A stretch of DNA of 64,000 bases from Pirellulimonas nuda (lineage in GTDB: Bacteria; Planctomycetota; Planctomycetia; Pirellulales; Lacipirellulaceae): positions 3,038,001-3,102,000 of the forward strand of contig NZ_CP036291.1 of the NCBI RefSeq assembly GCF_007750855.1. The letters run 5' to 3'. Positions 2,570 through 13,640 of the stretch are shown piece by piece. The notes under the pieces were generated by a model that was given only the letters and a program-made list of their open reading frames with translations, had not been told where the DNA came from and made no database searches. Each line of letters begins with the position of its first letter. The stretch's first letter is position 1. The translations under genes were made by a program, and so were the position numbers.

Positions 2570-2803
2570 CTACCGCCGCCGCTGCACCCGTCGCCTCGGC
2601 GCCGGCCTCGACAAGGCCCGCTTCTGCTGCGCGAGCCTGCAACAGGCGAGGACGCTGCCCACGACGAGCACGACGACGGTCGGCCAGAACGCGGTGGTGA
2701 GCAGCACGGCCAGAACAACGCACGCCCAGAACACGACCCCCCGCGGGGGCGGCCGCGTCCAGAACTCGGGGCGCGGGGCCCCTTGGTTTTCGTTACCCGA
2801 CAA
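2570..2803 (-). CDS. Small membrane protein, last gene of the ubiquitin-like operon
   Basis: A 77-residue protein has a polar, Pro-rich N-terminus, one long hydrophobic stretch (about residues 22-56, probably one or two membrane helices) and a basic Arg-rich tail, which favours a cytoplasmic C-terminus. I chose the TTG at 2803 because AAGGAGG sits 6 bases upstream, inside the end of the E1 gene. The longer frame has no such signal. It overlaps the E1 stop by about 11 bp, so translation is probably coupled. The family is not recognised. It may tether the conjugation machinery to the membrane, but that is only inference from position. Confidence 0.55.
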
Positions 2804-3488
2804 GGGTTGCCTCCTTGGCTCGAGGGGTTGAAACAATAAGCTCGCTCGCCAGCAGGTTGAGCGACAGGTCGGCGTCCAGCGGCTGCTGGCGCAGCCAGCG
2901 GACGAATTGGGAGAGCATCAAGCCGGCGGTCATGCCGGCGGCGTAGATCGTCGACCTCGCCGTGCAGGCGCCCGCCTGGGCCTCGTGCTGCGGAAACAGC
3001 GATTGGGAGTAGTGCGCGCGGCTGGCGGCGTCACACGCACTAAGCACCCGCAGGGTCTCGCCCCGCATCCGCCCGTCGGCCCAGAAGCCGACAAGGCCGC
3101 CGCCCCCTCGCCAGATGGCCGCGCGGGCGTCGATGGAATCGACGCAGCAGAAGGCCGCGTCCCCCAGCCGGGTCGCCGGGCGCCAGCGGTCCTGCACGGC
3201 GTCGACGTTGACCTGCGGATCGATCGCCAGCACCGCGTCGCGGCAGGCGTCGACCTTCCGGCGGCCGACATCGCCGCGGGCGTACCCCTGCGTCGTGACG
3301 TTGCTCGCGTCGACCTTGTCAAAATCCACCAGCCGCAGCCGGCGCACGCCGAGCGACGCCAGCTGCACCGCGACCTGCCTGCCGACGGCGCCGACGCCGA
3401 CCACGGCAGCGTCGAGTAACGCCAGCCTTGCTTGCGGCACCAGCTGCGCCTGCCGCGCGAAGCGGTCTTCCTCGGGTTCTGTAAACAT
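2793..3488 (-). CDS. E1-like ubiquitin-activating enzyme (ThiF/MoeB superfamily)
   Basis: This 231-residue protein has the core of an adenylating E1: nucleotide-binding GVGAVG at 31-36, the acidic DFDKVDASN loop at 55-63, and a Cys in GACTARS (C175) placed where the thioester cysteine lies in short bacterial E1s. It would use ATP to adenylate the C-terminus of the ubiquitin-like protein encoded 1.7 kb upstream, then pass it to the E2. It is shorter than eukaryotic E1s and lacks their ubiquitin-fold domain. The ATG at 3488 follows AAGGAG. It is 18 bp downstream of the JAMM gene and overlaps the next small gene. Assignment of the catalytic Cys is by alignment in my head, not tested. Confidence 0.88.
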
Positions 3489-3506
3489 CGGGCTCCTTGG
3501 GCTTGG

Positions 3507-4154
3507 TTAGTCTGGGGGGCAGCTCCAGAGGGCCTCCGCGGCCTCCGGGTCGATCCCGAACAGCCGCTCACCCAGCCCCTCCAGATCATCCCAGTCGGGC
3601 TCGGGCTCAACGCAGGCGGCGTACTGGGCGAGCCAAGCCGCGTGGTCGCTGCCGCCGAACGGCTCGTCCCACGCGACCCGCACGGGGAGCCGCTGGCTGG
3701 CGCCCGGGCCGGCGCTGACCCCCAGCCGGGCGTACCAGCCCCCACCACGCGCCAGGATCGCCATCACGGCCCAGTCGGCCGGCCCGAACACCCGGGCGAA
3801 CGTCGCCTCGTCGGTCCCGCTGGGGTGGGGCGAGACGCCGGGGTGGGTGTGGAACCAGATCCGGCCGAACTGTTGGGGGCTAAGCCCGGCGTCGGCCTGC
3901 TGGTCGAAGTAGTCGGCCACCGCGGCGTCGTCAAACGCCACGCTCACCGCGCTGCACGCCTGCCGGACCGGCGTTACGTCCCGCACCAAGAGCAGGTCCT
4001 GGGGGTCCGAGACGCCGAAGCAGCCGATCTCGGTCGGCCCCGCGTCACGCAAGAACCTGAGCTTGGCCCACGCGTGGGGCGTCAGCCGCAGCGACCGGCG
4101 CCGCTGCGGCTGGGGGCGCCTCGTCTTCTGATTCTTTCTCTGCAGTACACGCAT
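3507..4154 (-). CDS. JAB/JAMM-domain peptidase, putative deconjugase or Ubl processor
   Basis: A 215-residue protein carries a complete JAMM zinc motif: Glu42 in TEIGCFG, then HTHPGVSPHPSGTD with His102, His104, Ser112 and Asp115, the exact H-x-H-x7-S-x2-D spacing of active MPN+ isopeptidases. Such enzymes remove ubiquitin-like tags or trim the tag precursor. The ATG at 4154 has GGAG 6 bases upstream; a GTG at 4157 is possible. The first 36 codons overlap the 3' end of the E2 gene in another frame. The first 20 residues are strongly basic. Confidence 0.88.
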   Translation of the reverse strand: MRVLQRKNQKTRRPQPQRRRSLRLTPHAWAKLRFLRDAGPTEIGCFGVSDPQDLLLVRDVTPVRQACSAVSVAFDDAAVADYFDQQADAGLSPQQFGRIWFHTHPGVSPHPSGTDEATFARVFGPADWAVMAILARGGGWYARLGVSAGPGASQRLPVRVAWDEPFGGSDHAAWLAQYAACVEPEPDWDDLEGLGERLFGIDPEAAEALWSCPPD

Positions 4155-5070
4155 CACAAACTCCGTCGGTTAGGCATTGGTAGCAGCAGGTCCCGTCGCA
4201 GTCGCTACAGGGTTCCAGACACGCCCGGCAGTGGTGCTCGCCGCAGCCCTCGCACTCCCCGCGGCAGCCGTGGCAGAGGCCCTCGCCGCAGCCCTCGCAG
4301 GCGCCCGAGCAGCCGTCGCACACCTCGGCGTCGCAGCGTCCGCACAGCGACCGGTCCTCGTCGTCGACCAGCACGCCGCAGTCGCTGCAGGGGGACCCGT
4401 GCCAGCGGTCGAGGTCGACGTAAGCGCTCGACGCGTTGTAGGTCTGCAGGATCTGGCGGACGATCAGCACGTAGTCGTACAGCCGCCCCTCGAGGGCGGC
4501 CGCCTGCAGCACGGGGCCCCCCTCCCCTTCGCACAGCCGGTCCTCGACGACGTGCGGGTGGGTGACGCTCTGGTTGGACCCCGGGGCGTGCGGCTCCATC
4601 GCGATGACCAGCAGCTGGGGCTGGTCGCCGCCGAGCGTGCCCCAATCGAGCGACAGCAAGAACGGGCCGAGAGCGACCCCCTCGAGCGTGATCGGTCCGG
4701 TCGCGACCAGCAGCCGCCGCTGCGGGAGGTTGATCTCGAGCTGCGGGAACTCTTCGTCGATGGCGAGCAGGTCGCGGTAGAGGCCCCCGAGCGTTGGCGC
4801 CTGGCCCGCTCGCCGCTCTCGGCACAGGCGCTCGGCCTGTGAGGTGGCCGTGACGGCCAGGTCGCGCAGCGCCCGCTCGAGCCGCGGGCGGAGCCGCCTC
4901 GAAGCCGCGCGGTAGTGATGGCGGCAGGCGTGCCGCATCATGCGCGTGAGCCGCGCGACGGCGTCGAGCGGCAGCGGCTCCGCGGGCAGCGGCAGAACGT
5001 CTTGGCGGCGGGCGTAGGTCTCGGCGATCGCCGAGGCGGCCCGCCACAACATCTTCTGGCGTGGGTTCAT
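4045..5070 (-). CDS. E2-like conjugating domain fused to a Cys-rich RING-like tail
   Basis: This 341-residue protein has a helical N-terminus (1-105), then an E2-like core (about 110-225) with HPHV at 171-174 and Cys180 in RLCEGEG, equivalent to the HPN...C active site of ubiquitin E2s. The YDY and LQTYNASSAY segments follow. Residues 228-308 hold 21 cysteines, mostly CxxC pairs in a repeating pattern of about 15 residues, which should bind several zinc ions like a RING or tandem treble clef. The tail is Ala/Pro-rich and overlaps the JAMM gene. E2 and ligase-like functions would thus be in one chain. I chose Met at 5070; the frame opens 20 codons earlier. The E2 call rests on motif spacing and on neighbours. 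Confidence 0.8.
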   Translation of the reverse strand: MNPRQKMLWRAASAIAETYARRQDVLPLPAEPLPLDAVARLTRMMRHACRHHYRAASRRLRPRLERALRDLAVTATSQAERLCRERRAGQAPTLGGLYRDLLAIDEEFPQLEINLPQRRLLVATGPITLEGVALGPFLLSLDWGTLGGDQPQLLVIAMEPHAPGSNQSVTHPHVVEDRLCEGEGGPVLQAAALEGRLYDYVLIVRQILQTYNASSAYVDLDRWHGSPCSDCGVLVDDEDRSLCGRCDAEVCDGCSGACEGCGEGLCHGCRGECEGCGEHHCRACLEPCSDCDGTCCYQCLTDGVCDACTAEKESEDEAPPAAAAPVAAADAPRVGQAQVLA

Positions 5071-5182
5071 GGGATGGCCGCTTCGCGGCGGGGCTGGGGG
5101 CTGGGTAGGCAGTGGCCAGCAAGCAGGCATCCGTGCCCGCCGCTGACCGCTAATGACTAATACCTAAGACCTAACGCCTTCC

Positions 5183-5401
5183 TTAGGCCCCTTCGATCTT
5201 CACCGGCGTGAAGCTGATGCGGTCCCCTTCTTGGAGGACCTGATCGGCCGGCGCGGGCAAGCGGTTGACGCGGATCAGGTAGTTCTCGGGCCGCGGGTCG
5301 CGGACCTGCCGCTCGAACAGCTTGCGGACCGACGTGCCGGGCTCGATGTGCACGTAGTCGGCGAAGCCGGCACCGTCGTTGTTGATGACGAGGATTTTCA
5401 C
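5183..5401 (-). CDS. Ubiquitin-like protein (72 residues)
   Basis: The protein starts [10 protein letters not shown] and has the length and strand pattern of a beta-grasp fold, ending [11 protein letters not shown]. It resembles ubiquitin-like proteins that sit beside ThiF and JAB genes in bacteria. The last residues are Gly-Ala rather than Gly-Gly, so loss of one Ala would expose a C-terminal Gly for activation. The start is GTG at 5401. The upstream leader is unusual, with heptamer repeats and G-runs. It is the likely modifier for the E1, E2 and JAMM proteins encoded just downstream. Confidence 0.85.
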
Positions 5402-5463
5402 TATTGGACTCGGGGGTTAGGGGAGGGTCCGCCTGCGGCGGACGGGGTGTGTCGCTGCGCGAC

Positions 5464-5500
5464 GGGGCTGGGGACGGGGGGCTAGGGGTTGGGGACTGGG
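5464..5500 (+). other. G-quadruplex-like run cluster
   Basis: Six runs of three to six G lie within 37 bases on the plus strand, separated by two or three bases. This satisfies a simple G4 pattern. It lies about 65-100 bp upstream of the ubiquitin-like gene on the template strand. Short hairpins (GTCCGCC/GGCGGAC) lie between it and the gene. Any effect on expression is speculative. Confidence 0.5.
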
Positions 5501-5510
5501 AAAGGCGTCG

Positions 5511-5619
5511 ACTCATCACTCATCACTCATCACTCACAACTCACAACTCATCACTCACAACTCATCACTCACAACTCACAACTCACAACTCACAACTCAC
5601 AACTCACAACTCACAACTC
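5511..5619. repeat. Heptamer tandem repeat, about 15.5 units
   Basis: The plus strand consists of ACTCATC and ACTCACA units in a mixed order with no other sequence between them. The repeat covers the last codons of the 84-residue gene upstream (its VSCEL end and stop are spelled by the repeat). It lies in the leader of the ubiquitin-like gene. Units are too short and lack spacers, so this is not a CRISPR array. The copy number is likely to vary by slippage. Confidence 0.95.
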
Positions 5620-5851
5620 CGGCGTAGCGGGCTTGCCAGGCGTCGTCCCAGTCGAGGTAGCTCTCGTGGGCGATGTCGGCGGCGAGCGGGTTCACTTCTT
5701 CGAAGTCGTACGCCTCGTCGAGGACGACCTGCGGCTCGGGGTCGTGGCAGACGTCCAGCGGGGCGGCCAGCGAGAAGCCGAGTCGATCGATCGTGCGGCG
5801 GGACTCGCCGGTGGCGTGGGAGACGGCGGACAGCAGCTGGCGATGGGACAT
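5597..5851 (-). CDS. Small conserved-looking protein of unknown function
   Basis: An 84-residue acidic protein starts MSHRQLLSAVSHATGES and includes RRTIDRLGFSL and an acidic middle rich in Glu and Asp. The ATG at 5851 is preceded by GGAGG, better than the Met eight codons earlier. It sits between the 80-residue gene and the ubiquitin-like gene in the same direction. Its 3' end lies in the heptamer repeat, so its length could change with repeat number. No family recognised. Confidence 0.6.
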   Translation of the reverse strand: MSHRQLLSAVSHATGESRRTIDRLGFSLAAPLDVCHDPEPQVVLDEAYDFEEVNPLAADIAHESYLDWDDAWQARYAGVVSCEL

Positions 5852-5908
5852 GACGGACCTCCGGTTAGGGAACATGAACAGGGGGAGACGCAGAAGCGGT
5901 GACGCTGC

Positions 5909-6151
5909 CTAGAGGCGGCTTCGCAGCAGCCAATCGCGTTCGGCCCTCAGGGCCTCATTGCGGCTGGCGAACGGGCCCAACAGCGGCCCGTCCACAGGAG
6001 AAAGATCTGCCAGCCAATGACCGAGGGGGTCGGGCTCGACGTGGCTGGCCCGGGAGATCGAGACGCAGCCCAGAGTGGCCAAGTCGAGCGTCTCGTCGTA
6101 CAGCGTGGTGATCGTCCCCTGAGGTCCGACCACCAGGTGCAACGCTTCCAC
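5909..6151 (-). CDS. 80-residue protein of unknown function
   Basis: The protein begins MEALHLVVGPQGTI and contains SISRASHVEPD, then WLADLSPVDGPLLGPF and a helical end. It looks like a small, mostly beta domain. The GTG start at 6151 overlaps the TAG stop of the upstream gene (TAGTG), a sign of coupled translation. Its place inside the operon supports it being real. Possible roles include a substrate or adaptor of the conjugation system, without direct evidence. Confidence 0.65.
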   Translation of the reverse strand: MEALHLVVGPQGTITTLYDETLDLATLGCVSISRASHVEPDPLGHWLADLSPVDGPLLGPFASRNEALRAERDWLLRSRL

Positions 6152-7107
6152 TAGGCGCCACGCCGCATCACGCGGCGGCGGGGGCGGTCGACCAGCAGCG
6201 ACTCCAGGGACTGGGCGACCCGCCCCAACCCCTCGGCCGCCTGCTCGCGGAGCGACGTGTGGGTCCGCAGCCCCTCGGGCCGCACGCCGGCCAGCACTGC
6301 CTCGGCCTCTTCGACTAGCTCATCCAGCTCGCCAGAAGTGCTGAGCCGCAGGTGGCGGAACCGCTCGAAGAACGCCTGCAGGTTCTCGACCGCCGAGTCG
6401 CGGAACACCTTGGGCTTGCCGTCGGCCTGGCCCTCCAGCCGCTCGGCCAGGTGGCTTACCAGCCGCTGCAGCTCTTCGCCAAACGCCTGCTCGGCGAGGG
6501 CGACCGCTTCTTCGAAGCGTGCCCGCGTGCGCTCGCACTCCCGCCTGAACAGCTCGGGAGACAAACGACGCAGGTACTCCGGCGGCTCGACCGATGGAAA
6601 ATCCCACTCCACCGCAAAGAGCCCGCCGAGCCGTTCTGGGTAGTCGCCCGACTCAAACAGCTCTCCTAGACGGCGGCGGGCCGAGTCCCGCAGCTCGCCA
6701 TAGACCTCGTCCAGTTCCTGCACGGCTTCATTCAGCTCTTCGCGGTAGCCTTCAAACCGATGCTGCAGCGTCTCGACGTCGCCGCGACGCACGAGGCGGA
6801 CCCCCGGCTCGGGGAACGGCAGCGAGACCCCCTTCCAGTAGGCAACCGCTTGGCTGCGCACCGCGGAGACGCCGCGGTACTTGGGGTGCCGGGTGTCGAG
6901 CAGCTTCTTGCCGGCCGACAGAGAATCGCCGGCGGCGCCGAACGCCTCGGCCGCCTGCGCCTTCTGGTCGGCAGAGAGCGTCTTCTTGGCGCCGAACCAG
7001 GTGAACGACAATCGTACGGCCGCGGTCTCCAGCCGCAGCCGCTCTGGGGGTGAGGGAGGGGGCGCCTCGCGGTGGGTTGGAGGCGGGGCTTCGAGTAGTA
7101 CAGACAT
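6151..7107 (-). CDS. 318-residue helical protein of unknown function
   Basis: I chose the ATG at 7107 because GAAGGAG lies 7 bases upstream; the frame is open 21 codons earlier. After a Pro-rich start, the protein has a domain with LSFTWFGAKKTLSADQ and HPKYRGVSAVRSQAVAYW, followed by long charged helices that are probably coiled coils (about 120-290) and a basic end RPRRRVMRRGA. The overall look recalls helical DUF3150-type proteins of plasmids and phages, but I am not sure of this. It overlaps the next gene by one base. Confidence 0.65.
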   Translation of the reverse strand: MSVLLEAPPPTHREAPPPSPPERLRLETAAVRLSFTWFGAKKTLSADQKAQAAEAFGAAGDSLSAGKKLLDTRHPKYRGVSAVRSQAVAYWKGVSLPFPEPGVRLVRRGDVETLQHRFEGYREELNEAVQELDEVYGELRDSARRRLGELFESGDYPERLGGLFAVEWDFPSVEPPEYLRRLSPELFRRECERTRARFEEAVALAEQAFGEELQRLVSHLAERLEGQADGKPKVFRDSAVENLQAFFERFRHLRLSTSGELDELVEEAEAVLAGVRPEGLRTHTSLREQAAEGLGRVAQSLESLLVDRPRRRVMRRGA

Positions 7108-7166
7108 GGAGACTCCTTCGTGGTTGGTGAACGGTGGAAGCTGATCGCTGAACGCTGAAAGCTCCC

Positions 7167-7589
7167 TCACGGGGTGAGCCCCTTCAGCTCAAGCAGCACC
7201 GCGAGTTCGGCGCACAGGTCGGCCCCCGACCACTGCTTGTCGGGGTTCCAGAACGGCTCGTCCCTTTCGTCGCGGTCGAGGTAGAGCCGCTCCTGCACCC
7301 AGCGCGCCAGATGCTCGAGCTCCGCGCGATCGAGTTCGCCCGGGTCGCGGACGCCGCGTTTGGCGGCGGGGGTCAGCAGCTCGCCGTGGCCTCCCTGTTC
7401 GATGGCCCGCTCCAGGTCGCTCCCCCACAACGCGTGGATGCCAGCGGCCTCCATCGACTGCACGGACGGCTGCTGCGTTTCGGCGGCCTGAGCGTCCCAA
7501 TCTACGATTAGGGCGCGGACGCCTGGGCTGTTGGCGTACGCCTCTTGTACGACGCCGCCGAGGACGCTGAGGACGACGGTGATGTCCAA
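7167..7589 (-). CDS. 140-residue protein of unknown function
   Basis: The protein starts with a hydrophobic stretch (ITVVLSVLGGVVQEAY) and continues with SPGVRALIVDWDAQ and a helical, acidic remainder, ending LCAELAVLLELKGLTP. It starts at TTG (7589) with AAGGAGG 5-6 bases upstream, the same arrangement as the first and last genes of the operon. It lies 26 bp downstream of the AAA+ gene. No family recognised. Confidence 0.6.
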   Translation of the reverse strand: MDITVVLSVLGGVVQEAYANSPGVRALIVDWDAQAAETQQPSVQSMEAAGIHALWGSDLERAIEQGGHGELLTPAAKRGVRDPGELDRAELEHLARWVQERLYLDRDERDEPFWNPDKQWSGADLCAELAVLLELKGLTP

Positions 7590-7615
7590 TCTGCCTCCTT
7601 AGGGATATTCGCCCG

Positions 7616-9109
7616 TTAGTTGTTAGACGGGTCGCTACGCAGCGCGCGGCGACGCTTGGCGGTGGGCGCCGGTTGGCGATAAACCCCCGGCGAGTCGGCC
7701 GAGAGGCAGCGGCCGCTGGCCCAGCCCCGCAGCCGGGCGACCGACTCGGCCGCCGTCGAGGCGATGGGCACCACGTGCCTGGCCGCCTCGACCAGCGGCA
7801 GGTCGAGCAGCCGCGCCAGCCGGCAGCACGAGCGGACCTCGGCGCCGGTCCAGTCGTCATCTACTGGGCGGCGCTCGCCCGGGGCGATGCCGAGCGACGT
7901 GAGGTGGATCTTCCAGATCGCGTCTTTCTGCTGCCTCCCGGGGAGGTCCAGGAAGAACACCGCGTCGAACCGCTCGGCACGCGTCAGCTCGGGCGGCAGC
8001 CGCGAGACGTCGTTGGCGGTCGCTACGACGAACACGTCCGACTCGTGGTCCGCCAGCCAGCTCAACAGCGAGCCGAACAGCCGCGACTGCACCCCGGAGT
8101 CGCCGGTCTGGCTGCTCACGCCGGACAGGGCCTTGTCGAGCTCATCGACGAACAGCACGCAGGGCGCCATCGCGTCGATCGACGCCAGTGCCCCACGCGT
8201 CCGCTCCTCGGTCTGGCCGACCAGTGAGCCCATCAGCCGCCCCACGTCCAGCACCAAAGTCGGACGCCCCGTCTCGGCGCCGATCGCCTTGGCGATGGCG
8301 CTCTTGCCGGTGCCGGGGATGCCCAACAGCAACACCCCTTGAGGGCGGATGCTGGCGCCTGACTTGCTGTCGCTGGGCCGGGGACGCAGCGCCCGGCGAC
8401 AAAACCCCTTCAGCGACTCGAGCCCGCCGAGCTGGTCGAAGGAGCCGCCGCCCCGGTGGAGCGTCACCAGGCCCCCCTGGGCGAGCGTCTGGGCCTTGAG
8501 CGACCACAGCGTCTCGGGGGTGAGCCGCCGCTGGCGCACGAGGCTCAGCGCGAACGCCCCCTCGGCCTCGTACCGCGACAGGCCGCTGGCCGCATCTATA
8601 AGCTGCTCGAAGCCGGGCCCCTTGGGCAGCTCTCCGCGCTCGGTGGCGACGCCGCGGGCGATCTCTGCCAGCTGCTTCCTGTCGGGCAGGGCGTGCTCGA
8701 TCACGACGAACAACCGTTCCAGCTCGGGCGGCAGCTGCACCACCGGGGCGATCACGACCACGAACGTCGATCGCCGGCGCCCTTCTTCGACCTGGCGGGT
8801 GACGGCCTGCACGACTTCTACCGAGCTGAGGTAGCGGTGGAAGTTGGGCAGCACCAGCAGCGTGGCGCCCGCGTCTCGGGGGGCGTGGTCCAGCAGCCGC
8901 ACTGCAGAGACCGGGTCCGAGGCGGTCGCCGGGACGGCGGAGACCGTGCCCCACGCGCCCAGCTCGACGTCCCAGCCCCACGCCCGCCAGTTCTCGGCGC
9001 GGCACAGCGTGGCGATCTCTTCGAGGGCGTCGGGGTGTTCGTGGCTGGTGATCCACAGCCCCGAGAAGCACGCCCGCACGTGCTCCTGGAGGGTTTCGGA
9101 GAGCGACAT
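7616..9109 (-). CDS. AAA+ ATPase, Ycf46-like
   Basis: The 497-residue protein has a degenerate N-terminal ATPase-like half and a C-terminal AAA+ module with Walker A GIPGTGKS (263-270), Walker B CVLFVDELDKA (about 317-327), sensor 1 (VVATANDVSRLP) and an arginine-finger-like LTRAERFDAVF. This two-part layout is that of Ycf46 proteins of cyanobacteria and plastids. It follows the DUF1257 and DUF2997 genes. It could unfold or remodel tagged substrates, by analogy with AAA+ partners of ubiquitin systems. The ATG at 9109 follows AAGGAG. Confidence 0.85.
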   Translation of the reverse strand: MSLSETLQEHVRACFSGLWITSHEHPDALEEIATLCRAENWRAWGWDVELGAWGTVSAVPATASDPVSAVRLLDHAPRDAGATLLVLPNFHRYLSSVEVVQAVTRQVEEGRRRSTFVVVIAPVVQLPPELERLFVVIEHALPDRKQLAEIARGVATERGELPKGPGFEQLIDAASGLSRYEAEGAFALSLVRQRRLTPETLWSLKAQTLAQGGLVTLHRGGGSFDQLGGLESLKGFCRRALRPRPSDSKSGASIRPQGVLLLGIPGTGKSAIAKAIGAETGRPTLVLDVGRLMGSLVGQTEERTRGALASIDAMAPCVLFVDELDKALSGVSSQTGDSGVQSRLFGSLLSWLADHESDVFVVATANDVSRLPPELTRAERFDAVFFLDLPGRQQKDAIWKIHLTSLGIAPGERRPVDDDWTGAEVRSCCRLARLLDLPLVEAARHVVPIASTAAESVARLRGWASGRCLSADSPGVYRQPAPTAKRRRALRSDPSNN

Positions 9110-9154
9110 ACTGGCTCCTTGGCTAGGACAAGAAATGGCGAGCAGCAGAAGTGG

Positions 9155-9364
9155 CTAGGACGGGTTCGTGTGGCCTCCAGCCGAGAGGCGGTTTTGGACC
9201 GTTAGGGGTTGCTGGAAGAAGGCAGGCGTGAGCTGCTCCGACTGCCGGACGCCCAGGGCCGCCTCCAGCAGCCGGCTCGCCTCCTGGCAGGCGGCGCCGG
9301 CGTAGCCGCGGGTCTCGATGCGGGCCTCGCCGGTGGGCGAGACGATGATCTCGATCGTCTTCAT
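9155..9364 (-). CDS. DUF2997 family protein
   Basis: A 69-residue protein begins MKTIEIIVSPTGEARIETRG, then GAACQEASRLLEAALG, the pattern of the DUF2997 family: a short beta hairpin and one helix. Its ATG overlaps the TGA of the DUF1257 gene by four bases (ATGA), so the two are translationally coupled. No biochemical function is known to me. Confidence 0.8.
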   Translation of the reverse strand: MKTIEIIVSPTGEARIETRGYAGAACQEASRLLEAALGVRQSEQLTPAFFQQPLTVQNRLSAGGHTNPS

Positions 9365-9729
9365 GCGGCGCCCTCCATCTGGACCACCAAGCGGATCGAG
9401 CCGTCGGCGATGGGCTCTTCGTGCACCGCGTGCCCGCTCCGCCGGGCGACCAGCGTGGCCCGCTCGACGGCGTAGCCCTGCAGGAACCGGTCGAGCTGCC
9501 GGGGGTCGCCCCAGTGCCCGCCGTAGTGGTCGTAGCGCAGCGTGCCGGTGGGGAGCTCGCACACTACGGGGTAACGCCACGCGGGGAGCGCGACCGCGAG
9601 GCCGGTCGCCTGGTTGGTGAACAGCCGGTGCGTCCCTTCGGTGGGGGGCGGGAGCTGGAGCCGCCGGCAGGCGGCCGTGACCGACTCCCGGCAGCGGACC
9701 TCGGTCTGAATCGTGACGATGTGACTCAT
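9361..9729 (-). CDS. DUF1257 family (Ycf35-like) protein
   Basis: A 122-residue protein starts MSHIVTIQTEVR and shows the DUF1257 layout: an N-terminal beta strand, RRLQLPPPTEG, and a C-terminal segment DRFLQGYAVERATLVARR. The family includes the plastid/cyanobacterial Ycf35. DUF1257, DUF2997 and a Ycf46-like ATPase lie in direct succession here, which suggests they act together. ATG at 9729 follows GAGGAG and overlaps the stop of the lipoprotein gene. Confidence 0.8.
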   Translation of the reverse strand: MSHIVTIQTEVRCRESVTAACRRLQLPPPTEGTHRLFTNQATGLAVALPAWRYPVVCELPTGTLRYDHYGGHWGDPRQLDRFLQGYAVERATLVARRSGHAVHEEPIADGSIRLVVQMEGAA

Positions 9730-10241
9730 GCGTTCTCCTCGGGATGGTGGTGGAGACGGGGAGAGAGACGTTGGGTGGAATCACCGCGCAAGAGCTCTGG
9801 CAATGGAGAACCGCTCCGAAGCGACTCCCGCACGACCAGTGCTACGAGCTCCTGGTTGCCGTCGTCTTGGCGTTGGCCGAGCAGCAAGATCACGGCGACG
9901 CCGAGCGTCAGCAAGACGATCAGGACGACCCCTGTGCCACGCACCGCCATGGCCAAAGCCGAGTCGGTGCGCCGCTGGGCCGCGATCTGCCGCCGCTCCG
10001 CCTCCAGCTCGTTCCAGCCGCCGGAGAGTTCTCGGCGTTCGGCCTGCAGGTCGCCGTGGACCGCGACGATCTGCCGGGTCGCCTCGGCCGACTCACGCGT
10101 CACGCTCGCCATCGCCTCGTTCTGCGCCGCTTGACGGTCGGCGGCCTCGCGCGCGACCTGGGTGACGCGGTCGTCTTCGCAGCCGACGCTCGCCAGCAGC
10201 AGCATAAAACTCAGAAGCAGCATCCTTGGGGTTCGGTTCAC
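9726..10241 (-). CDS. Lipoprotein with coiled coil and a membrane segment
   Basis: The protein of 171 residues has a signal sequence ending in a lipobox (LLLASVGC, Cys at about 21), then a helical coiled coil (about 28-90) and a second hydrophobic segment (GTGVVLIVLLTLGVAVILLLG, about 102-122), ending in a polar tail. It starts at GTG with AGGAGG 4 bases before, inside the upstream gene. It overlaps the DUF1257 start by four bases. It suggests that the operon product works at the membrane. The combination of lipobox and later membrane helix is unusual, so membrane topology needs testing. Confidence 0.65.
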   Translation of the reverse strand: MNRTPRMLLLSFMLLLASVGCEDDRVTQVAREAADRQAAQNEAMASVTRESAEATRQIVAVHGDLQAERRELSGGWNELEAERRQIAAQRRTDSALAMAVRGTGVVLIVLLTLGVAVILLLGQRQDDGNQELVALVVRESLRSGSPLPELLRGDSTQRLSPRLHHHPEENA

Positions 10242-10371
10242 GGGGCCTCCTCGGGTTCAAGATCAGGTTCAGCAGTCGCTCGAGGGCCCGCCGCAGGCGG
10301 GTCTCTCGCACGAGGCGTAACGCTAGCAGCACAACTGCTAGCGAGAGCGCCCAGACAATCGCGTTGGACAA
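10093..10371 (-). CDS. Small membrane protein, first gene of the ubiquitin-like operon
   Basis: The frame starts at TTG (10371) with AAGGAGG 5 bases upstream. It codes a hydrophobic N-terminus (NAIVWALSLAVVLLALRLV) followed by a basic region. The frame runs 149 bp into the lipoprotein gene, where its residues become Arg-rich and shadow-like, so the real product may be shorter or the overlap may be genuine. No recognised family. Confidence 0.5.
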   Translation of the reverse strand: MSNAIVWALSLAVVLLALRLVRETRLRRALERLLNLILNPRRPREPNPKDAASEFYAAAGERRLRRRPRHPGRARGRRPSSGAERGDGERDA

Positions 10372-10743: not shown

Positions 10744-11935
10744 GTGAGTGGTATTCGAAAAGGGTTCTTGCTCACTCTTGGTGAACGCTTGGCCTCGTTG
10801 CGAGGTGTTTGTTGGTCGTCGGAAGAGTCTGCGAATCCGCGGTGGCTGGCGGAGAATGCCCACCCACGCTCGGCGAAGCTCTCCTACGCCGCATTAAGAA
10901 AGCGGATCCGCAGCAGGTCGAAGCCCGCGCGGCCGTACATCTGGCGTTTGATCATCTTGAGTCAGTTGACGTGGCCTTCCGTTTGACCATTGCTCCACGG
11001 AGAAGTGAAGGCCATTGGCGCCGCGGCCGAGTCCCGGCCTAGTCCATGGGCCACTCGCGAGAGCATCTCCCCAGCCAACGCACCAAGGCTTCGCGTAGGT
11101 TGCAGAGCAGATGCCACCGATCGGCGACCTGCAGCGCATGGGGGGCCCCTTCGCTAGCCCCTTGCCGGTAGTACTCCCCCCTGTCCCGACTGATAATCTT
11201 CACCCCTGAATGCTTCGATAGCCAGGCACTCAGCGACTCTTTACTCCGCTCCGGAAGCAGATGAATCGGTCGGCGACGAACCAAGTCGCAAAGAATAGTT
11301 CCATAGGTCGCCCTCTTCCTGAAGGCGATATCGTCTACGCCCAACACCTGCGGACAAGCGGGCTTCTTGTGTCCCGCCCGACGCAAGAGTCGGAGCAGGC
11401 TATCGCCGCTGGTCGCCATGCCGAGGCGGTTGGCCGGTCGGGCGCCTGGCAGACCACCGCAGGCCATGGCGATCGCCCGCAGCGCCTCCTCCGATCGCGT
11501 CGTCTGACGAGCGTGCGGCTGAGCGACTTTCGGGAGACGCTCGGTGAAAACCCGCTGCTGGCAGCCAGCGTTCCGGCAGAACAGCTTCCGGCTGCGCCAC
11601 ACAAGCCGAACCTGCAGCCCGTGCCAAGACAGGTCCTTCAAGTTCCGGACGTACCGGCTATGGACGCGTCGGGAAGGTTCGCCACAGGAGGGGCAATGAG
11701 CCGTCTGCCGGCCACTCTCCACGAGCAGCGTCGCCACGCCATCTTCAACCTGCACTGAACGGCAGATCAAGGACTCTGGTTCTGGCGATGCAGCTGCAAA
11801 TCGCACGGCAAGCGACTCCAGAAAGTCTGGCCGTGCATGGCATCAATGCAGAAAGTCCTACGGGTACTCCAGTATGCAAACCGAGCCGAAGCGTCCACCA
11901 AGAGTGAGCAAGAGCCCTTTTCGAATACCACTCAC
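10744..11935 (-). mobile_element. ISL3-family element, degraded
   Basis: Terminal inverted repeats of about 40 bp lie at 10744-10783 and 11896-11935 and start GTGAGTGGTATTCGAAAAG, differing by one base over most of their length. They enclose a damaged transposase. No 8-bp target duplication is visible at the two flanks. A lone copy of the same end occurs at 21375-21393, so the family has moved elsewhere in this genome. Confidence 0.85.
10893..11806 (-). pseudogene. ISL3-family transposase, truncated and with a stop codon
   Basis: The 5' part (11039-11806, 255 codons) has the N-terminal zinc finger (CPSCGE ... CRNAGC), a helix-turn-helix, VDDIAFRKR and ISRDRGEYYRQGA, which carry the first two acidic catalytic residues. 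It then runs into a stop. The C-terminal end reappears at about 10893-10990 (NGQTEGHVN, stop, LKMIKRQMYGRAGFDLL) with a nonsense codon, and roughly 100 residues between are missing. The element cannot make an active full-length transposase. Confidence 0.85.
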
Positions 11936-12034: not shown

Positions 12035-12194
12035 ATCTGCAGCGGTGGACATCACTTCCCTCAGATTCGGCTCCGAGCAAGTAGTTGGAACTGGCCCAGT
12101 TTCAGCAAGTTCGCGATCGGGCCTATCCTCCGAGGTCGCTTCGCGTTGGCGGCGCCTCCGCTGGTAATCCGAGAGGCGCCGCCTTGGCAAGAGT
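12035..12194 (+). repeat. Dispersed repeat, copy B (left half, next to integrase copy 2)
   Basis: The plus strand contains GCAGCGGTGGACATCACTTC followed by ATTCGGCTCCGA, as in copies C, D and E. It runs to the stop codon of the integrase. A perfect 11-bp hairpin (arms 12148-12158 and 12173-12183, GGCGGCGCCTC) lies just after that stop and could end its transcript. Copy F lies on the other side of the integrase, so B and F may be two halves of one integrase-carrying element. Confidence 0.75.
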
Positions 12195-13235
12195 CTATGC
12201 TTGAGGGAACCTCCGCCGGCAGCAGGGGCACTCGCCATCAAACCCTTGCGACAGCGCGGCGAACGCCGTCGGCTGTGGCAGCGACATGATCGCCTTGAAG
12301 GCGAGCGGGTCCCGATGGGCGTAGTGCCGGTAGGTCACACCGCCTACCGAATGGCCGAGGATCTCGATCGACGACTCCGGCATATGCTCGTCGTAGTACG
12401 TAGCACAGGTCTTCCGAAGGTCCTTCAAGACCCATGGCTTTTCCTCACCCGTCTCGATGTCCTGCTTTGGCTGGACTTCGGCCAAGGTGCAGAGCCGCTG
12501 GAACTGCTCGTTTGGACGCGAGCTGCCGCAACAGAAGACAGCCTGGCCCGGCTGCCGCTCGTCGGACCAAAGGCTCTTGAGGTGCGTCTTCACGACGCGA
12601 TTCATCGGACGATAGAACTGCTTCTTTGTCTTCACTCGGCGGTAGTATAGCCACCCGAAGCGGGAATCCCGGCCTTGCCCGCTCGGAGGCTCGGGCCGCC
12701 ACGAGACATGCCGCCACAGGACCGGCTCATGGAAGGAGGCGGACTGGAACACCGTTCCGGTGTCCACGCCGTAGTTGAAGAACACCACCAGGGCCGCCCG
12801 CCAATAGTGGCCGACCGTCAGCGACTGCTTCCACCCTCGCGGTTGCTCCAGAGCGTAGGTTGCGAAGTAGAGCGCGTTCAGATCAGATTTGGTCAGGTAA
12901 TGGCGCCCGGCGACATCGCGTTGAGGTTTAGACAACGGGAAGCGAGGCAGCTTTTCCAGGAAGTCCTGTTCCCAGGCCCACGACAGGATGGCCCGTAGGT
13001 TCTCACGAGCCTTGTTCGCTGTACGTCCAGCGTTCGATCCGCCATCAGATGCCGCCTTCTCGTAGACCCAGTCCAGAAAGTCCCGCAGGTCAGATCGGCC
13101 GATCTGATCGATAGTGGGGCCTCGACCCCAGGCGAGCCATTTAGCGACGGTCCGCCGATACTCTTTGCGGGTACCGGAAGAGAGCGGCTTGGCGTTCAGA
13201 TACTTGACGGCAACGTTCTCAAAGCTGACTGACAT
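12195..13235 (-). CDS. Tyrosine recombinase (planctomycete-type integrase)
   Basis: The 346-residue protein has an N-terminal SAM-like DNA-binding domain (1-100) and a C-terminal catalytic domain. Arg274 in LRKTCAT, His295 in LGHS and Tyr305 in YRHYAH fit the family's second Arg, His and nucleophilic Tyr. The place of the first conserved Arg reads NYGVDTGTV, with no Arg. The end carries ECPCCRRRF, a possible zinc knuckle. I chose the ATG at 13235; the frame opens 13 codons earlier. It is the only intact-looking integrase here and is framed by repeats B and F. Confidence 0.85.
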   Translation of the reverse strand: MSVSFENVAVKYLNAKPLSSGTRKEYRRTVAKWLAWGRGPTIDQIGRSDLRDFLDWVYEKAASDGGSNAGRTANKARENLRAILSWAWEQDFLEKLPRFPLSKPQRDVAGRHYLTKSDLNALYFATYALEQPRGWKQSLTVGHYWRAALVVFFNYGVDTGTVFQSASFHEPVLWRHVSWRPEPPSGQGRDSRFGWLYYRRVKTKKQFYRPMNRVVKTHLKSLWSDERQPGQAVFCCGSSRPNEQFQRLCTLAEVQPKQDIETGEEKPWVLKDLRKTCATYYDEHMPESSIEILGHSVGGVTYRHYAHRDPLAFKAIMSLPQPTAFAALSQGFDGECPCCRRRFPQA

Positions 13236-13394
13236 GGAAGCGGCTCCAGGCCGTCGGCATCTGCCTCCGTCCACGGCTCCGCCTACCGACAGCCCTGACT
13301 GGCGTCCTGCGTGACCTCCTGTCGCTCGGTGACAAGGTCAGGCAGCTCACGCTAGCTGCACAGATGATCCCAGAATAGTTGGCAGAACGGCCAA

Positions 13395-13640
13395 GTGTGC
13401 AATTTGGCAGACGGGCGAGCCTCAATAGAGCGACCCAACCGCTGCAAGATTGGACCCACAGCGATCTGCATGAGTGAGCTGCACTTCTGTATGTTCGAGG
13501 ATGGCCCCGGCGCGGGAGGATGGTCCATCGTCAGCGACTGTACGTTCAACCGGACATGCAGCGGTGTGGGGACCCCAGAAGCGTCGCGGCAATCCAAGGG
13601 CGCTCGACAAAACCGCCTCACTTCTCTCGGCTCAGGCGCC
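13395..13640 (+). repeat. Dispersed repeat, copy F (right half)
   Basis: This stretch aligns with the right half of copy E: GTGAGCTGCAC, then GAGGATGGCC, then ATGCAGCGGTGTGGGGACC, CAGAAGCGTCGCGGC and GGCGCTCGAC occur in the same order and spacing. The start also matches the end of copy C (ACAGCGA-CTGCATG). It lies upstream of the integrase gene and ends about 95 bp before the IS3 element. Confidence 0.75.

Follow-up and report, generated by a model that had tools for sequence, protein, structure and literature searches.

What role a complete ubiquitin-like conjugation pathway might play beside an AAA+ ATPase is the question raised by an operon of the planctomycete Pirellulimonas nuda (assembly GCF_007750855.1, contig NZ_CP036291.1). 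The operon lies on the minus strand at positions 2570-10371 of a 64,000-nt stretch (contig positions 3,038,001-3,102,000), which is the whole of the DNA first read and is referred to below as the window. It encodes a ubiquitin-like protein (Ubl), an E1, an E2 and a JAMM peptidase, preceded by an AAA+ ATPase and its small partner proteins; each such unit, with or without the ATPase module, is here called a cassette. Mobility, six-fold copy number in the genome and presence in phages proved to be the most informative facts about the cassette, and all three are invisible from the window sequence alone. That the cassette is mobile and shared with phages is almost certain. We lean towards the view that it is a mobile system for conjugating and removing the Ubl, used where phages, mobile elements and hosts are in conflict, and that the AAA+ ATPase would act on the tagged proteins.

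Gene organization and conservation of the cassette

The preliminary description of the window had placed the Ubl, E1, E2 and JAMM genes in one minus-strand run. All four are in place, and every open reading frame (ORF) of the operon was found uninterrupted at the position first assigned to it. The genes are, from 5′ to 3′:

10093-10371, minus strand: 92-residue protein with a hydrophobic N-terminal stretch
9726-10241, minus strand: predicted lipoprotein (LASVGC lipobox) with a coiled coil and a C-terminal transmembrane stretch; kept in ~20 loci
9361-9729, minus strand: DUF1257 family protein (family match PF06868)
9155-9364, minus strand: DUF2997 protein (2.8e-14)
7616-9109, minus strand: AAA+ ATPase, 497 residues; AAA domain 4.8e-28, phage family phrog_8638 matched over nearly the full length (2.6e-83)
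7167-7589, minus strand: p140, a small, poorly conserved protein
6151-7107 (ORF opens at 7170), minus strand: cc339, which accompanies the ATPase and is mostly helical; mean column identity of 65% across 32 sequences
5909-6151, minus strand: p80, small and conserved, belonging to the ATPase module
5597-5875, minus strand: p92, a small protein with ~40 conserved N-terminal residues
5183-5401, minus strand: putative Ubl, 72 residues, ending in ...TPVKIEGA; ThiS at E 0.01, Gly71-Ala kept in the family
4045-5070, minus strand: predicted E2 of UBC fold with HPH...C180, an N-terminal helical bundle and ~ten C-terminal CxxC pairs; no Pfam match
3507-4154, minus strand: predicted JAMM/JAB metallopeptidase, 215 residues; Prok-JAB 6.3e-5 plus motif, overlapping the end of the E2 gene
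2793-3488, minus strand: E1-like adenylating enzyme, 231 residues, with a single ThiF domain; PF00899 2.4e-24, invariant Cys before Thr (CT)
2570-2836, minus strand: 88-residue protein with a single transmembrane segment, overlapping the E1 gene; seen in this genome's six cassettes alone

The E2 and JAMM genes overlap by ~110 nt, several further junctions overlap by 4 nt, and AAGGAG-type sites precede the E1, cc339 and AAA starts. The G+C content of the operon is 0.69-0.70, compared to mostly 0.62-0.65 elsewhere in the window. Of the membrane module first proposed, the lipoprotein is conserved, whereas the 88-residue transmembrane protein was found in the copies of this genome alone.

A Ubl profile was run against 84,980 species, each represented by one genome. 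It identified 128 relatives, the best 80 of which were kept. Nearly all of these best 80 belong to Planctomycetota; one each came from Chloroflexota, Pseudomonadota and Actinomycetota bins, and these may be misbinned. The cultured planctomycete Lacipirellula limnantheis I41 contains two cassette loci (L034 and L049) and offers workable material. The exact order Ubl-E2-JAMM-E1 is present in 60 of the 69 bacterial loci with room downstream. Among 53 loci with room upstream, DUF1257, DUF2997 and AAA+ precede the Ubl set in 25, cc339 and p80 in 30. In 294 sampled planctomycete genomes, the Ubl was found in 9 and cc339 in 15; both occur together in 7, versus 0.46 expected (P 6e-9, or P 1e-7 excluding P. 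nuda itself). The neighbourhood is therefore not unique to this genome, and the repetition of gene set, order and strand across dozens of loci is far beyond chance. In several loci (L079, L092, L100, L105 and L106), mostly from Phycisphaerae, a GHKL (Hsp90-like) ATPase gene stands ahead of the Ubl cassette, and in some a DUF2958 gene does so too.

The Ubl, E1, JAMM and E2 proteins

The 72-residue protein, a putative β-grasp modifier, has weak profile similarity to ThiS and MoaD. Across planctomycetes it conserves the stretches NN.G.GFAD and YLIRVNRQP and a C-terminal K(I/V)(E/D)G, with Gly71 present in 84 of 86 bacterial sequences. The C-terminal Gly is nearly always followed by Ala and then by 0-67 extra residues. 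The phage precursors in L110 and L111 consist of tandem units, each of which ends in KV(Q/E)GA. Variable tails and tandem precursors both fit proteolytic maturation by the JAMM peptidase, with one glycine instead of two. L110, L111 and L116, all from IMG/VR, contain two E2-JAMM-E1 sets together with a Ubl precursor of 221-245 residues, and SbcCD-like and helicase genes adjoin these doubled sets.

The E1 consists of an adenylating domain with the nucleotide-binding residues and a conserved Cys. The nucleotide-binding glycines, R35, D53, D55, N61, Q65, K76, D113 and C172 are invariant in bacterial and phage members alike. The JAMM protein falls slightly short of the cut-off of the Prok-JAB profile; its E...HTHP...S..D motif is complete in 14 aligned members.

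The E2 was modelled with AlphaFold2 from 74 sequences, with a mean predicted local distance difference test (pLDDT) score of 91.9. The model contains a helical bundle (residues ~1-90), an E2-like domain (residues ~91-225) and a C-terminal run of CxxC pairs. By structural alignment, the E2-like domain superposes on UBE2S with a Z-score of 7.7 and a root-mean-square deviation of 3.7 over 124 residues; further E2s at Z ~7 and the UEV domain of TSG101 are also among the matches. His171-Pro-His173...Cys180 is invariant in the 74 sequences; classical E2s carry HPN...C, to which HPH...C180 is the counterpart. As a Z-score near 7-8 is not decisive by itself, the assignment rests on fold and score together with this motif. 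On the predicted structure, its matches and the invariant HPH...C180, 4045-5070 is an E2 with the UBC fold that had been proposed for it, and catalysis is predicted. A PF14461 (Prok-E2_B) scan of the P. nuda genome found no match, and the controls were likewise unmatched. When a viral library was searched with the E2 model, the top matches were long, poorly superposed or Cys-rich proteins, and these were rejected.

The preliminary description had called this protein a single-chain E2-RING. The fusion of an E2 to a Cys-rich tail is there, whereas RING is one of several finger classes that the tail resembles. Compared with the C3HC4-type RING cross-brace, the tail spacing is repeated CxxC with Cys throughout. 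Profiles of MID1, TRIM21, p44 and FYVE matched at E 0.004-1, and Foldseek returned the CARP2 FYVE and tandem PHD. The tail thus appears to resemble FYVE, PHD, B-box and RING-class fingers in general, and 'E2-RING' should be read as a name, with RING as a candidate class. L010 (898-1743), from a distant planctomycete, encodes another type of E2-like protein, which combines HPN...C with a Cys-rich tail, beside a trypsin-like protease.

Copies, mobility and neighbourhood

The P. nuda genome contains six intact cassettes and a decayed seventh (G000:C1:3724938-3728194), in which Ubl residues 35-72 remain at 3724938 and a piece of cc339 with an in-frame stop at 3728006. The ATPase module is complete in copies 1 and 3. 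Copies 2 and 5 keep cc339, p80 and p92, with no AAA+ gene recognised, and in copies 4 and 6 a small helix-turn-helix/sigma-region-4-like gene takes the place of the module. The Ubl, E2, JAMM and E1 genes compared among the copies are all open. The ratio of nonsynonymous to synonymous substitution rates (dN/dS) of the Ubl is 0 to 0.08 between the six copies, which indicates strong purifying selection; the E2 is the fastest changing. Another sampled planctomycete genome (G238) also has six cassettes. The homology of the six copies ends soon after the gene for the transmembrane protein, and neither a shared end sequence nor an attachment (att) site was seen there.

A large serine recombinase with Resolvase and Recombinase domains lies upstream in 17 of 53 loci, and TniQ and transposase genes flank others. 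In complete genomes, 10 of 113 ORFs in cassette flanks encode recombinases or integrases, versus none of 114 in control segments from the same genomes. At E<=1e-10, PADLOC families numbered 223 in the 113 flank ORFs and 9 in the 114 control ORFs, counts that exceed gene counts owing to related models matching the same protein. Even with the counts overstated, flanks and controls plainly differ in kind: the flank families include GajA, MkoA twice, type I and II methyltransferases, specificity subunits, PD-T4-6 and AriA-like. Copy 5 of P. nuda adjoins the N6-methylase and specificity subunit of a type I restriction system. In the window, the operon lies between inverted 1.4-kb tyrosine recombinase copies of 88% identity (window 12044-13484 and L021 2841-4265), the second of which is mostly outside the left end of the window. 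The neighbouring features are:

12195-13274, minus strand: tyrosine recombinase, whose inverted copy lies beyond the operon
11039-11806: ISL3-type transposase, seemingly incomplete

Carriage by phages

Scans with Ubl and E1 found the cassette, whole or partial, on ~30 distinct IMG/VR contigs of up to 185 kb, most of which repeat the four genes and their order. A terminase match is present on 12 of the 30. Three contigs were examined: G300 and G302 encode terminase and portal, and G313 encodes terminase, head-tail adaptor, major head protein and tail protein. These structural genes indicate that tailed phages do carry the cassette. L126 also has a terminase match on its contig, yet it looks like a bacterial island and was not counted. 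No Ubl or E1 relatives were found among INPHARED phages, nor Ubl relatives among PLSDB plasmids, at the limits used; every phage case is therefore metagenomic.

On seven related viral contigs an AAA+ gene lies within ~10 kb of the cassette, accompanied by cc339 in six of the seven and by p80 or DUF2997 in some. The association of the Ubl set with AAA+/cc339 thus recurs in genomic settings as different as those of bacteria and viruses. In a quick E1 tree, midpoint-rooted and with long branches, bacterial rows fall among deeper and more diverse viral rows. At least two switches between bacterial and viral carriage are forced by the tree, and transfer may have run in either direction.

The ATPase module

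DUF1257 was matched by PF06868 in 13 of 16 family members, with the copy of the window itself unmatched, and an NCBIfam scan placed the AAA+ domain near the Cdc48, PAN and FtsH ATPases. One member of the cc339 family is weakly like DUF3150; a structure model of cc339 gave no credible fold match. An AAA+ gene in Corndog-type mycobacteriophages reaches 28% identity, but its neighbours are unlike the module and it was set aside. The module had been described as attached to the Ubl set. It is a conserved partner, as the co-occurrence above indicates, whereas the attachment is not fixed: other planctomycetes have the module apart from any Ubl set, and the module is missing beside the Ubl set at about half of the loci and from four of the six P. 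nuda copies. The two are therefore separable. A conserved TOPRIM-like protein (VEGxxDxxFL), with no Pfam match, is encoded in ~17 loci, often between the DUF2997 and AAA genes; L029 4883-5668, L058, L063 and L142 7517-8146 are examples.

The stand-alone loci (L150-L160, with cc339 and no Ubl) follow the order DUF1257-DUF2997-AAA+-cc339-p80-p92. The next gene usually encodes a β-clamp-like protein, whose profile matches solved β sliding clamps at 6.6e-7, and a PD-(D/E)XK nuclease gene (1.2e-30) often comes after it. In L037, L055, L069 and L078 the Ubl set and then the clamp stand in one row, in L069 with the nuclease as well. Possibly, the stand-alone module with clamp and nuclease is a separate defence system. 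The stand-alone modules, for example L154 6588-14159, adjoin type I restriction genes, helicase/methylase genes or the gene for a 1632-residue SIR2 protein.

Proposed function and alternatives

If the system works as its parts suggest, the JAMM peptidase would trim the residues beyond ...K(I/V)xG and expose a C-terminal glycine on the Ubl. The E1 would adenylate this glycine and load the Ubl onto its own conserved cysteine, from which the Ubl would pass to Cys180 of the E2. The zinc tail of the E2 chain could supply an E3 function within the same protein or select substrates. The Ubl would then be attached to target proteins, and the JAMM peptidase could take it off again. AAA+ together with cc339, p80, DUF1257, DUF2997 and the lipoprotein would form a downstream machine, most likely one that unfolds or remodels tagged proteins; for this part of the proposal we see about even chances. 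The system would serve for defence or exclusion of rivals in bacteria, and for takeover or superinfection exclusion in phages. A role in conflict is, in our judgement, somewhat better than evenly supported.

Several observations weigh against this proposal. The enzyme classes, although very probably right, are assigned by homology, and the activities are predicted. The profile matches of the Ubl are weak (ThiS E 0.01, MoaD 0.52 in a PDB profile search), and its mature C-terminus may be either Gly or Gly-Ala. Unrelated helical proteins also reach Z near 7 in the match list of the E2 model. About half of the Ubl loci lack the ATPase module, and next to the module there is no gene for a protease that could degrade the tagged proteins. 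Draft metagenome bins supplied most of the loci, and the inflated PADLOC comparison covers a small sample. As phages carry the cassette, 'defence' cannot be its whole meaning.

The main alternative is a replication-linked modifier, in which the Ubl would be placed on the sliding clamp or another replisome protein, like the eukaryotic modification of PCNA, and AAA+/cc339 and the nuclease would act at the fork. It was raised by the clamp gene that usually follows the stand-alone module, often with the nuclease, and by the four loci in which the clamp follows the Ubl set, once with the nuclease. However, only 6 of 50 loci have a clamp or nuclease gene in the 4 kb that follow E1, and for this reason the clamp link is kept as a rival. 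In addition, neither was seen near phage cassettes, and no clamp gene adjoins the operon of the window. We regard this alternative as unlikely. Somewhat less likely still is a related proposal, in which tailed phages and mobile islands share a complete Ubl pathway that acts at DNA replication and tags a β clamp or replisome, be it the host's or a rival's. Such a pathway would be an independent parallel to PCNA modification, and AAA+/cc339 would read the tag. Host protein quality control would have the Ubl mark damaged proteins and the AAA+ unfold them for host proteases, with the island position incidental. An ATPase adjoining a tagging system, its domain near Cdc48, PAN and FtsH, and the strong purifying selection would all agree with this role; the patchy occurrence (9 of 294 planctomycete genomes), up to six copies per genome, the recombinases and defence genes around them and the phage carriage make it improbable.

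The genes could also belong primarily to phages, for takeover or counter-defence, with the bacterial copies as remnants of integrated phages or satellites. The deeper and more diverse viral E1s, with bacterial rows among them, and the two E2-JAMM-E1 sets of some phages point in this direction. However, the E1 tree is quick, midpoint-rooted and long-branched, and the bacterial copies are intact, under selection and without surrounding phage structural genes in the loci read, so that we give this origin little credence. Least probable by far is that Ubl and E1 form a sulfur-carrier pair in cofactor synthesis or thiolation rather than in protein tagging. Although ThiS/MoaD and ThiF/MoeB are the nearest matches of the two proteins, their neighbours are a JAMM peptidase and an E2 of UBC fold whose Cys is conserved, the Ubl ends in Gly-Ala rather than Gly-Gly, and no thiamine or molybdopterin gene was noticed beside the copies.

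If the conflict system that we prefer is real, complete E1-E2-JAMM-Ubl pathways are carried by tailed phages and not by bacteria alone, with tandem Ubls ready for maturation and sometimes two enzyme sets, and the benefit to a virus of its own tagging system becomes testable. Bacteria and their viruses appear to exchange a complete protein-tagging pathway. Prokaryotic Ubl conjugation would also gain a link with an AAA+ machine and, at some loci, with the sliding clamp, two partnerships that are central in eukaryotes.

Comparison with known systems

Bacterial operons with E1, E2, JAB and Ubl genes have been known since 2006 (Iyer 2006, PMC1779556), and PMC4197634 attributes E1/E2/RING/JAB operons in Planctomycetes to Burroughs 2011. 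In a literature in which subscription journals were thinly covered, we found no record of a phage Ubl set, of a partnership between DUF1257/DUF2997/AAA+ and a Ubl, or of the β-clamp link. The 2006/2011 operons share with the cassette sporadic occurrence, mobility and the joining of Ubl, E1, E2, JAB and zinc finger within a single operon. Among the classes of the PMC1779556 table that were compared, none combines a separate one-domain E1 and a Cys-tailed E2 with AAA+/DUF1257/DUF2997.

The preliminary description had likened the operon to the Bil antiphage systems. Bil (BilABCD) likewise has Ubl, E1, E2 and JAB in four genes, and the likeness holds for these four core activities, whereas membership, by the features compared, does not. 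Bil has a two-domain Ubl, an E1 with inactive and active lobes and a Cys domain, and a CEHH E2 (PMC11354881); here, one 72-residue Ubl unit in bacteria, a 231-residue one-domain E1 and an HPH...C E2 with a zinc tail are found. The CEHH motif is absent from this E2, in which C180 is followed by EGEG... with no His pair. Nor is it the single chain of the PADLOC E1-E2 (Cap2-type) family: the E1 matches the E1 half alone, and the separate E2 gene is unmatched. The Bub operons are Ubl-pathway operons whose regulators are common to restriction and other immune systems (PMC13373217); the likeness lies in the Ubl-pathway operon, as set side by side by description.

In Caldiarchaeum subterraneum, one operon encodes a pro-Ubl matured by a JAMM protein, an E1, an E2 and a zinc E3 (PMC5654768). 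Its E3 is a separate small RING protein and its Ubl ends in Gly-Gly, whereas in P. nuda the E2 is fused to the zinc tail and the Ubl ends in Gly-Ala. For the ATPase module, the nearest arrangement is the cyanobacterial DUF2997-ycf35(DUF1257)-fed7 cluster, in which DUF2997 and DUF1257 are also adjacent (PMC4284462). Different from that cluster, which has a ferredoxin partner and no reported Ubl pathway, the P. nuda operon joins these two proteins to an AAA+ ATPase and a Ubl set.

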